64,000 nucleotides of DNA from Gemmatimonadota bacterium (GTDB lineage: Bacteria; Gemmatimonadota; Gemmatimonadetes; Longimicrobiales; Gaopeijiaceae): assembly GCA_030827315.1 (NCBI GenBank), contig JAURER010000001.1, positions 1 to 64,000 of the forward strand. Direction: 5' to 3'. Of this stretch, positions 7,316-11,681 are shown in pieces (the stretch's first letter is position 1; each line of letters opens with the position of its first letter). Made by a program: the position numbers and the translations under genes. Under the pieces are notes generated by a model. The model was not told the origin of the DNA. It saw only the letters and a list, made by a program, of their open reading frames with translations, and made no database searches.

Positions 7316-10300
7316 TCACCCGAAGTTCTTTACACCCGGGGGGCTCTGGCGCAAAGCCGTGAGGTAGCGGTAGGGATCGGTCGGCGACGTTTCGGTGTCG
7401 GCCCAGTACTCCATCGCGCCGGGGAGGGACGCCTGGAAGTGCTCGCGGTCCGGGGTCCCTTCTCCCGCGGCGGCGGACGCTACGGTCCGGGCCTCCGAGG
7501 TCGCGTACGAGCGGGACATTCCTCGTCGTCGGACGGGCGCCCCGGGGACCCGCAGCGCCTGGATCTCGTGCGCGATCACGTTGAGCGTGGCGCCGTCCTT
7601 CTGCAGCCTCCCCGTCACGGCCAGGAAGGGCTCCGTGCGCACCGCCGAACGATCGCGCTGGTAGATGTCAGGATTCACAATCACGTTGATGTGACCGTGT
7701 TCATCTTCCATCAGGACAAATACATAGCCTTTTGCGGTGCCAGGGCGCTGCCGGGTCGTGACCAGCCCCGCGACGCGCACGGTGCTTCCCTGTTGGAGCT
7801 CGGGGAGGCGCCCGGACCCGACGGTTCCCGCAGGCAGCACCCCGTGCAGAAGGGAGAGCGGGTGGAGTTCGGCCGAGAAGCGCAGCATCCGGTATTCGGC
7901 GATCATCCGGTCGTGGGCTTCGAGGTCCGGGAACGCCAGGCCGGCATACGGATCGTCGAGGGCGAGCTCGGTCTGGGCGTGGTTCTCGCGTCCGCCCGTC
8001 CGGTCGTCGTTCGTCTCCGGGCCCAGCCAGAGACCGGCCTGCCACAGCAGTTCCCGGCGCGTGAGGCCGAAGTCGGAAAAGCCGCCCACCCAGATCAGGT
8101 TCTCGATGGCCGGGCGCCGGAGCGAAGCCGGCGTCCGGCGCAGGAAGTCCGACAGTGAGCGATACGGGCCGCGCGCTTCGCGTTCCTTGACGACCCGTTC
8201 GGCGATCTCCGCACCCCATCCCCGCACGAAGCCGAGCCCGATGCGCAGGTCGTTTCCTTCTGCAGTGCACTCCACCCGGCTGTGGTTCACGTCCGGCAGC
8301 AGTGTCCGGATCCCGTTGCGGCGGGCGTCCCGTCCCAGGGCGTCGAGCGAATAGAAGCCCATGGGCTGGTTGTTGAAGAGCCCGACGTAGAATTCCACCG
8401 GATAGTAGTGCCGGAGCCAGGCCGACTGATACGCGAGGAGCCCGAAGGCCGCGGCGTGGGACTTCGGGAAGCCGAACTCGGAAAACGCCGTGACCTGGGC
8501 GAAGATCTCCCGCGCGGTGGTCTCGTCGACCCCGTTGGCGGCCGCCCCGTCCCGGAACTCCTCCCAGTGGGCCGTCAGGGCCTCTCTGGAGCGCTTCCGG
8601 CTCATCGCACGCCTCAGGGACTCGGCCTGACCGTCGGAGAAGCCCGCGAGGGCCTGGCAGACCTTGAGGACCTGGTCCTGGAAGATGATCACCCCGAGCG
8701 TCTCCCCCAGGGCTTCCTCGAGGAGGGGGTGGGGGTAGGGGACCTCGTAATCGGGCACCTCGCGCAGCATCTCGCGCCGGCGCACGTACGGGTTCACCGC
8801 ACCGCCCACGATCGGACCCGGGCGCACGATGGCCACCTGGACGGCCAGATCTTCCAGGTTGCGCGGTCGCGTGCGCCGGAGCATCTGGATCTGGGCCCGG
8901 CTCTCGATCTGGAAGATGCCCGTGGTGTCGCCCGAGCAGATCCGGTCGTAGATGATCTCGTCGTCGAAGTCGATGCGCGACAGGTCCGGAGCCTCTCCGT
9001 GCCGGTCCGCGATCAGGTCGATGCTCTCCTCGACCAGGGAGAGCATGCCCAGGGCGAGGAAGTCGATCTTGATGAAGCCGGCGTCCTCGCACGAGTCCTT
9101 GTCCCACTGACAGAGGACCCGCCCCTCCCAGGCGGCCGGCTCGAGGGGTACGATCTCCACGAGGGGCCGGCTCGAGATGATCATTCCGCCCACGTGCTGC
9201 GAGATGTGGCGGGGGAGGCCGGCCACGTCCTCGGCGAGTTCGCCGAGGAGCTTCCAGAGGTGCCCGTCGGCCCGGTCCTTGAACTCGGGAAGCGAGGCGA
9301 TCTCCTCGGCGAGACCCGAGGCGGATCGGTGCTCGGCGAGCTTCGAGAGCTTCTCCAGCTCGCCCATCGGCAGGTCCAGGACCTTGCCGATCTCGCGGAC
9401 CGCCGACTTCAGGCGGTAGGTGGGGAAGGTGCAGACGAGTCCCGTATGTTCTTGTCCATATTTATTATACACGCGTAAGATCAAGTTTTCTCTGATATCA
9501 CGCGGGAAGTCCAGGTCGATATCGGGGACGCTGCGCAGCGCCTCGTTGAGAAAGCGCCCGAGGAAGAGGTTGTTCTTCACCGGATCGATGTGGGAGAGCC
9601 CGATCAGGTAGCAGATGATCGAGGAGACCGACGATCCGCGCCCGCGCCCCGCCGGGAGTCCGGACGTCGCCCGCGGCGCCTCCCCGCGTACCTCGCGGGC
9701 GACCTGGGCGGCCAGGTCCATGATGTCCCGGTAGACGAGGAAGAAGCCGGCGAGGCCGTGGAGATCGACCAGGCAGAGCTCCCTGTGGAGGCGTTCCTCC
9801 GCGTCTCGCTCCTCCGCGCTACCGGGCGCGTACAGCTCCGAGATACGGGCCAGGCACATGGCGGCCAGAGACTCGATGGCCCCTCCACGCTCGGATCCCT
9901 CGAAATCGGGGAATTCGTAGCCGAGATCCTCGGTCAGGTCGAAGTGTGCGCACCGCTCCGCGATGAGGAGCGTGTTCGTGAGCGCTTCCGGACGGCTCTG
10001 GAAGCGGTGACGCATCTCCCAGGGGGCCGCGAGGTGGAAGAGCCGGTTGGCCCTTCGGGCGCCGTGTGCGCCGTCGAGCGTGGTCCGGTTGCGGATGGAG
10101 ACCAGGACGTCCTGCAGGCGATGACGCTCCGGGCGGTGGTAGTGCACATTGCCCGTGGCCACGACGCCGAGCCCCATGCGGCCGGCCAGACGGCCCAGCC
10201 CCTTGTTGCGGGCGCTGTCGCCCTTCACGGCGTTGTCCTGGAGTTCCACGAAGAGGCTTCCGGGCCCGAACGCCCCGAGGAGTCGCCCCAGGAGGGCCTC

Positions 10301-10756
10301 GGCGTCGGCCGCGGAGGAGTCCAGCGCGGCGGACAGTGGGCTTTTCGCGCACCCGGTGAGCAGGATCAGGCCCTCGGAGCGGTGGAGCAGGGAGGCGAGC
10401 GGGAGGCTCGGGCTGCCGCGCTCCGAGCCCATGTGCGCCTCGGTGAGGAGTCGGCTGAGGTTCGCGTACCCCCGTGGCGTCTCGGCCAGGAGGGTGACGT
10501 GGTGCCCACCCTCGGGCTCGGGTACCCCGGTAAAGCATTCCCGCAGCGTGACCTCGGCACCGGTGATCGGCTGCACGCCTACCTCGCGGGCAGCCCGGGC
10601 GAACTCCATCGAGCCGTAGAGCCCGTTGTGGTCGGTGAGCGCCAGGGCGGGGTAGCCCAGCTCCGCGGCCCGCATGACCAGCTCTTCGGGGTGGGAAGCC
10701 CCGTCCAGAAAGGAAAACCCCGAGTGGCAGTGCAGCTCGACGTACGGGATCGACAA
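7316..10756 (-). CDS. dnaE2: Error-prone DNA polymerase III alpha subunit DnaE2
   Basis: C-family translesion polymerase of 1146 residues, the catalytic subunit of the ImuA/ImuB/DnaE2 mutasome. Domains in order: PHP domain (VELHCHSGFSFLDGASHPEEL and LALTDHNGLYG, residues about 5-48), palm with the catalytic aspartates in SVPDIDLDFPRDIREN (about 410-425), fingers, a helix-hairpin-helix region, and a C-terminal OB domain (STVRVAGLVTTRQRPGTAKG). The start is TTG at 10756, chosen because GGAGG lies 6 bases upstream and VELHCHSGFSF must be included. Two patches have AT-rich codons unlike the rest (about 9440-9500 and 7661-7740). CCGAA repeats upstream match those before imuB. The polymerase identity is certain; the DnaE2 rather than DnaE1 call rests on length, ending and those repeats. 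Confidence 0.93.
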   Translation of the reverse strand: MSIPYVELHCHSGFSFLDGASHPEELVMRAAELGYPALALTDHNGLYGSMEFARAAREVGVQPITGAEVTLRECFTGVPEPEGGHHVTLLAETPRGYANLSRLLTEAHMGSERGSPSLPLASLLHRSEGLILLTGCAKSPLSAALDSSAADAEALLGRLLGAFGPGSLFVELQDNAVKGDSARNKGLGRLAGRMGLGVVATGNVHYHRPERHRLQDVLVSIRNRTTLDGAHGARRANRLFHLAAPWEMRHRFQSRPEALTNTLLIAERCAHFDLTEDLGYEFPDFEGSERGGAIESLAAMCLARISELYAPGSAEERDAEERLHRELCLVDLHGLAGFFLVYRDIMDLAAQVAREVRGEAPRATSGLPAGRGRGSSVSSIICYLIGLSHIDPVKNNLFLGRFLNEALRSVPDIDLDFPRDIRENLILRVYNKYGQEHTGLVCTFPTYRLKSAVREIGKVLDLPMGELEKLSKLAEHRSASGLAEEIASLPEFKDRADGHLWKLLGELAEDVAGLPRHISQHVGGMIISSRPLVEIVPLEPAAWEGRVLCQWDKDSCEDAGFIKIDFLALGMLSLVEESIDLIADRHGEAPDLSRIDFDDEIIYDRICSGDTTGIFQIESRAQIQMLRRTRPRNLEDLAVQVAIVRPGPIVGGAVNPYVRRREMLREVPDYEVPYPHPLLEEALGETLGVIIFQDQVLKVCQALAGFSDGQAESLRRAMSRKRSREALTAHWEEFRDGAAANGVDETTAREIFAQVTAFSEFGFPKSHAAAFGLLAYQSAWLRHYYPVEFYVGLFNNQPMGFYSLDALGRDARRNGIRTLLPDVNHSRVECTAEGNDLRIGLGFVRGWGAEIAERVVKEREARGPYRSLSDFLRRTPASLRRPAIENLIWVGGFSDFGLTRRELLWQAGLWLGPETNDDRTGGRENHAQTELALDDPYAGLAFPDLEAHDRMIAEYRMLRFSAELHPLSLLHGVLPAGTVGSGRLPELQQGSTVRVAGLVTTRQRPGTAKGYVFVLMEDEHGHINVIVNPDIYQRDRSAVRTEPFLAVTGRLQKDGATLNVIAHEIQALRVPGAPVRRRGMSRSYATSEARTVASAAAGEGTPDREHFQASLPGAMEYWADTETSPTDPYRYLTALRQSPPGVKNFG

Positions 10757-11002: not shown

Positions 11003-11467
11003 ATGTCCGAACCCGTCTACACCGCCGACATCCGCATCGAACGCATTCGCGGCCCCTACCGGCACGCGTACCTCCCGGCCCACGAAGGCCCGGTGGAGTT
11101 CGGCGTGCACAGCGCCATCGCCGAGCACTACGGGGTGGAGCCCGAGCGGCAGATCACGACGACCCTCGACTACGTCATGGCGGCCACCGGCGGCTGACTG
11201 ACGGGTACCTTCGGAGGCGCGCTGGAGGCGCGCGGGATCAAGGCGAGCGAAGGCCACCTCACGGGCGACGTCCGCGGCGAGGTGGACAAAGAGGAGGACG
11301 GGGTCATCGTCATCCGGCGGATCCACGTCACGTACCGTCTGAAGGCGGGCGAGGACGTGCGCGAGACGGTGGAACGCGTCCACCGCGTGCACGCGAACCG
11401 GTGTCCGGTCTACCGCACCATGAAGGACTCCATCGAGATCACCACGGAGTACGTGCTGGAACCATGA
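11003..11467 (+). CDS. OsmC-family protein, candidate selenoprotein (in-frame TGA = Sec65)
   Basis: OsmC/Ohr-family thiol peroxidase-like protein of 154 residues if the TGA at 11195-11197 is read through. OsmC proteins reduce peroxides using two cysteines. Upstream of the TGA the protein reads TLDYVMAATGG and directly after it LTGTFGGALEARGI, which is the family motif normally written GGCLTGT. The TGA therefore replaces exactly the first redox cysteine (residue 65). The second, Cys134, is intact in ANRCPVYRTM. Both halves are in one frame, with GC3-rich coding on each side and an ending EITTEYVLEP typical of the family. A SECIS-like hairpin follows the TGA at 11217-11233. OsmC-like selenoproteins have been described in metagenomic surveys. 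Alternatives are a one-base pseudogene or a sequencing error. Confidence 0.8.
11217..11233 (+). promoter_or_regulatory. Candidate bacterial SECIS element
   Basis: GCGCGC (11217-11222) pairs with GCGCGC (11228-11233) around the loop TGGAG. The loop begins 25 nucleotides after the TGA and its second base is G. Published bacterial SECIS models call for an apical loop roughly 16-37 nt from the TGA with a G in its first two positions, so this hairpin fits. It lies within coding sequence. An additional outer pairing CCTTCG/CGAAGG (11208-11213 with 11248-11253) is possible. High local GC makes chance hairpins common, so this is support, not proof. Confidence 0.55.
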
Positions 11468-11480
11468 GGAGGAGGCTCGG

Positions 11481-11681
11481 GTGCGCCTCCGGGACCGGCT
11501 CGACCAGGCCCTGGAAGGGCGCTACCGCCTGGAGCGCGAGCTGGGACGCGGCGGAAGGGCGACCGTCTTCCTCGCCCACGACCTGCGGCATGCGCGGCAG
11601 GTCGCAGTGAAGGTGGTCGAGGAGCGTCTCGAGGGCGCCGACGAGCGCTTCGAGCGCGAGATCCTCATCGCGGCGTGCTGA
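11481..11681 (+). pseudogene. Remnant of a serine/threonine protein kinase N-terminus
   Basis: A 66-codon GTG-started ORF reading LEGRYRLERELGRGG, then ATVFLAHDLRHARQVAVKVV, then RFEREILIAA before a TGA. This is the N-terminal lobe of a bacterial Hanks-type kinase: Gly-rich loop GRGGRATVF, the VAVK lysine, and the start of helix C. It stops where the rest of the kinase should begin, and the convergent hydrolase gene lies only 7 bases beyond. No continuation was seen in any frame. It starts 14 bases after the OsmC gene. It is most likely a decayed gene end; a short functional peptide is less likely. Confidence 0.75.

Follow-up and report, generated by a model that had tools for sequence, protein, structure and literature searches.

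A probable OsmC-type selenoprotein with an in-frame TGA at its redox position represents a putative new subfamily in Gemmatimonadota and Chloroflexota

Results and Discussion

An OsmC frame with TGA at codon 65

We analyzed a 64,000-nucleotide stretch (the window) at the start of contig JAURER010000001.1 from a 3.07 Mb draft genome that is 98% complete. The Gemmatimonadota background suspected in the first-pass annotation of this DNA is supported by the titles of the closest records. Within the window, a single open frame that we call OsmC-U runs through an in-frame TGA, and the features at this locus are as follows.

11003-11467, + strand: OsmC-U coding sequence, 154 aa with predicted Sec at codon 65; terminal stop TGA at 11465-11467
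11060-11062, + strand: Arg20 codon CGG, invariant in 101/101 homologues; candidate counterpart of the Ohr catalytic Arg (PMC5962072)
11195-11197, + strand: TGA probably read as selenocysteine (U65), at the site of the OsmC-type reactive Cys
11217-11233, + strand: predicted SECIS upper stem-loop, stem 11217-11223 / 11227-11233, apical loop GGA 11224-11226
11402-11404, + strand: Cys134 codon TGT in a CP[VT] motif, likely the resolving Cys; Cys in 100/101 homologues

The product of 11003-11467 reads MSEPVYTAD...TLDYVMAATGG-U-LTGTFGGALEARGI...HANRCPVYRTM...LEP*. A translation with Cys at position 65 gives a match to Pfam OsmC (PF02566; E 8.9e-16; 58.6 bits against a cut-off of 27.5) over residues 52-149, that is, across the TGA, and this family assignment agrees with the OsmC fold of the predicted structure. 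The first-pass annotation had proposed one continuous frame through 11195-11197 with an intact second Cys (residue 134 in ANRCPVYRTM); the match spanning the TGA supports the former, the translated frame contains the latter, and the observation of an OsmC frame with TGA at codon 65 is confirmed. It had also stated that OsmC homologues carry Cys at this place and had suggested aligning the product with them. In profile alignments with the solved OsmC proteins of T. thermophilus and E. coli, U65 does fall on their reactive Cys (in GCF/ACF), and Cys134 falls on their second Cys (in GCPV). OsmC-U genes are likely to be truncated or overlooked by automatic annotation.

The TGA is conserved across Gemmatimonadota and in Chloroflexota

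We searched 298 genomes from across the phylum Gemmatimonadota using a query with Cys at position 65, and 301 Chloroflexota genomes using a family profile. The gene is present in 90 of the 298 Gemmatimonadota genomes with exactly one in-frame TGA per full-length copy, and each strong match in 59 related genomes likewise contains exactly one. The homologous loci that we fetched come nearly all from Gemmatimonadota and range from 99% to ~32% in identity with the window protein; TGA occupies the aligned codon in 101/101. Because some loci represent the same species in two collections, independent cases number somewhat fewer than 101. In Chloroflexota, 30 of 301 genomes match the profile, their full-length members contain at least one TGA, and the codon reads as TGA in 20/20 loci. 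These members are SAR202-type, the phylum of the SAR202 genome being Chloroflexi by its record title. The retention of TGA at codon 65 in relatives, a comparison that had been recommended at the outset, bears out the initial argument that a stop codon did not land on the catalytic position by chance.

A Cys version was found in none of the 298 Gemmatimonadota genomes, where it would have been detected because the query itself carried Cys at 65, and the family profile retrieved none from the 301 Chloroflexota genomes either. The few matches free of TGA are either fragments or other OsmC proteins that match weakly, and the family is apparently Sec-only. Contig ends inside the gene may conceal family members in fragmented assemblies; draft contigs stopping inside the gene near the TGA or the SECIS hairpin include G157:C53, G157:C145, G304:C126, and locus L064. 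In one Chloroflexota locus (L148; G438:C29:5000-8068), ~2.2 kb of sequence interrupts OsmC-U between residues 62 and 75; the split falls at the Sec/SECIS region, and IstB-type (IS21) and PQQ-propeller sequences lie nearby.

Many genomes carry a second paralogue that is 31-44% identical and also contains a TGA. The copy in the source genome (L083; G000:C44:10258-10695) has the SECIS stem in an A-U variant (GCGCACUGGAGGUGCGC). The source genome additionally encodes two OsmC-domain proteins without TGA, and we observe that a protein with an OsmC domain and an ordinary Cys (AGAVGNCLAASL; L158, G000:C81) coexists there with OsmC-U.

Purifying selection and a conserved SECIS element

Both halves of the gene had been described as well conserved. 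In ten pairs of sequences, dN is 0.08-0.37 versus dS of 0.5-1.7 on either side of the TGA, and these dN/dS values well below 1 indicate purifying selection on each half.

Downstream of the UGA lies a hairpin, 5'-GCGCGCU-GGA-GGCGCGC-3' (7 bp, -11.2 kcal/mol, z -2.9), whose loop starts 26 nt past the UGA. The published bSECIS model calls for a loop of 3-9 nt, an upper stem of 4-16 bp, G in the first two loop positions, a location 16-37 nt after the UGA, and an MFE of -7.5 kcal/mol or lower (PMC13188914), and the window hairpin satisfies every one of these constraints. The stem and loop-G rules are also satisfied by 107 of 111 sequences, with 4/111 failing in the same register. Pairing of the stem across the 111 sequences reaches 97.3%, versus a shuffle maximum of 94.1% and 15-69% for slid versions. 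When the 1711 candidate six-pair stems of the 75-nt stretch were compared, this one had the highest paired fraction (0.97). A ranking based solely on double-changed cells proved to be biased toward variable, mostly unpaired regions, and paired fraction was therefore adopted.

Two stem pairs show compensatory changes, from C-G to U-A in 12 sequences and from G-C to A-U in 24, with a further compensatory state of the second pair (C-G) in two Chloroflexota sequences. The 12 and 24 double-changed cells are numbers of sequences and not of separate events; a quick tree, which we used for counting state changes only because its long branches are unsure, requires at least 4 and at least 7 state changes for the two pairs. 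Both compensating pairs couple an Ala/Val change in one codon with a synonymous change in another. The stem-loop overlaps the strongest synonymous constraint of the gene: among the 99 codons tested, 74, 77, 72, 78, 76, and 71 take the first six places, and codon 73 ranks eighth. When the 51 or 66 nt from the UGA onward were folded as a whole, their energies did not stand out from those of shuffled sequences, owing to the GC-richness of the surrounding DNA, and the SECIS signal was obtained via comparative pairing and synonymous constraint.

The source genome is equipped for selenoprotein synthesis

A search for selA, selB, selD, and tRNA-Sec had been proposed as a check on the original call, and all four are present in the source genome. 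The tRNA-Sec has anticodon TCA and scores 68.8 bits (cut-off 47), and selA scores 518 bits. SelD is itself of the selenoprotein form, with an in-frame TGA in GAGUACK (L156; G000:C99:21800-23600) that fits UxxK, the motif listed for selenophosphate synthetase (PMC13188914). Given the tRNA-Sec, selA, selB, and the Sec form of SelD, the genome is equipped for selenoprotein synthesis. Two marks of a bacterial selenoprotein are found here: an in-frame UGA that is conserved at a functional site and past which the homology extends, and selA, selB, selC, and selD in the same genome.

Across the 298 Gemmatimonadota genomes, tRNA-Sec occurs in 84 of the 90 that carry OsmC-U and in 131 of the remaining 208 (Fisher p 9e-9, relatedness ignored). 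Among the six OsmC-U genomes that lack a scored tRNA-Sec, one has the gene severed by a contig end and five show none; selA is present in all six, and the five gaps are thus most likely assembly gaps. Every OsmC-U genome (90/90) carries tRNA-Sec or selA. Conversely, selA is absent from 17/17 of the genomes checked that have neither OsmC-U nor tRNA-Sec.

A lone in-frame stop is the usual sign of a pseudogene, or of a sequencing error that turned TGC or TGT into TGA. However, an identical TGA in some 120 loci from separately assembled genomes, down to ~32% identity, together with purifying selection on both halves and a conserved SECIS, makes either origin extremely improbable for OsmC-U. The frame would equally be left open by a genome-wide reassignment of TGA, for example to Trp, or by readthrough without Sec. 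We give this account next to no credence: the aligned residue in OsmC proteins is a reactive Cys and not Trp, the selA and selB frames of the source genome contain no internal TGA, and both a SECIS and the complete set of Sec genes are present and associated with the gene. We consider it very probable that OsmC-U is a selenoprotein of the Ohr/OsmC superfamily, a status about as secure as sequence allows. For Sec insertion at UGA65 itself, we infer that SelB and Sec-tRNA-Sec, recruited by the downstream stem-loop within the coding region, would decode the codon as selenocysteine.

OsmC-U differs from known OsmC-like selenoproteins

As the first-pass annotation stated, OsmC-like selenoproteins are known from metagenomes, with three UxxT sequences from the Sargasso Sea in 2005 (PMC1088965) and five sequences from GOS in 2008 (PMC2398784). 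UxxT is given for OsmC-like selenoproteins in reviews from 2022 and 2026, the latter of which places a differing Sec motif in a separate subfamily (PMC13188914). The present group shares with the UxxT proteins the OsmC domain, a predicted Sec replacing the redox Cys, and a bacterial SECIS just downstream. However, its Sec motif is U-[LM]-x-G-T-like, with Gly rather than Thr at U+3 in 111/111. In addition, reports of the UxxT family describe Cys homologues alongside a small number of Sec sequences (PMC1088965, PMC2398784), whereas the present group is phylum-wide, has two paralogues in many genomes, and yielded no Cys version in our searches. The nearest curated selenoprotein model, NF041052 OsmC_like_Se (NCBIfam, OsmC-related (seleno)protein), resembles the window protein weakly across residues 55-152 and gives it 20.2 bits where the cut-off is 95; the best E value among 31 members is 3.3e-8. 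Given the Gly at U+3 and the score below the NF041052 cut-off, the group is best filed as a distinct, putative new subfamily of OsmC-type selenoproteins. Literature searches, mostly outside subscription journals, returned no description of such selenoproteins from Gemmatimonadota or SAR202.

Bacterial selenoprotein families have mostly been discovered via their Cys homologues. The authors of the deep-Sep method state that it may miss selenoproteins without such homologues (PMC12013277), and a Sec-obligate clade, having no Cys counterpart, would elude methods based on Sec/Cys pairs. Whether OsmC-U belongs to a clade of this kind, common to Gemmatimonadota and Chloroflexota, duplicated within the former, lacking any Cys counterpart, and with a chemistry that may need selenium, we regard as a little short of an even call. 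The remarkable point is the family rather than the single gene, in that it is phylum-wide, duplicated, found in Chloroflexota too, and so far lacking any Cys version. This apparently Sec-only family, the second TGA paralogue in the source genome, and the conserved SECIS all go beyond the first-pass annotation. A family this widespread widens the known selenium use of Gemmatimonadota and SAR202-type Chloroflexota and offers a clean test of why certain enzymes stay Sec instead of reverting to Cys.

Predicted structure and function

The AlphaFold2 model, computed with Cys in place of Sec (pLDDT 96.8, pTM 0.89), is an OsmC fold, and structural comparison ranks OsmC and Ohr proteins highest (2onf, Z 15.2; 1ml8, 14.0; 1nye, 12.8). 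This predicted fold is common to E. coli OsmC (1nye/1qwi), T. thermophilus OsmC (1ukk), and Ohr (1zb9/4xx2) at Z ~12-13. Both Cys positions of the OsmC thiol peroxidases match U65/C134; the differences from Ohr/OsmC thiol peroxidases are that Sec would replace the peroxidatic Cys and that sequence identity is merely ~10-16%. The invariant residues of the family are R20, G34, D56, U65, G68, T69, G72, L74, and R77, and C134 and P135 are kept in 100/101 homologues.

Ohr works through the combined action of Arg19, Glu51, a peroxidatic Cys61, and a resolving Cys125, and lipoylated proteins serve as its reductant (PMC5962072). By analogy with Ohr, Sec65 would be the attacking and Cys134 the resolving residue, and the 154-residue product is most likely a selenol-based hydroperoxide reductase, a role that we hold with fair but incomplete confidence. 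Sec65 would attack the peroxide, Cys134 would resolve the selenenic acid to give a selenenylsulfide, and the latter would be reduced by a dithiol, perhaps that of a lipoylated protein; these are the substrate and reductant that we infer for OsmC-U. A counterpart of the Ohr Glu was not located in the family, where an invariant Asp56 alone is found close to its place. Less likely, though possible, is a selenoprotein with a non-peroxidase role, such as a selenium/persulfide carrier or a thiol protein of the YhfA type. Such a role would be consistent with the profile retrieving OsmC and YhfA-type (1ml8) sequences rather than Ohr, with the OsmC-family member YhfA having no known activity (PMC5962072), and with our finding no informative operon around OsmC-U, but the pairing of Sec with a resolving Cys and the invariant Arg20 fit the Ohr/OsmC peroxidase mechanism and argue for the hydroperoxide reductase.

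Genomic context

OsmC-U is divergent from a dnaE-type polymerase gene at 7316-10756. The sequences adjoining the gene across loci include dnaE in 24 and an aldolase in 14, which shows synteny and not a functional operon. Promoter and terminator scans gave no result, and a plasmid search returned no match. Directly after OsmC-U, positions 11481-11681 encode the N-terminal part of a protein kinase domain, 66 residues long, that resembles a truncated remnant.
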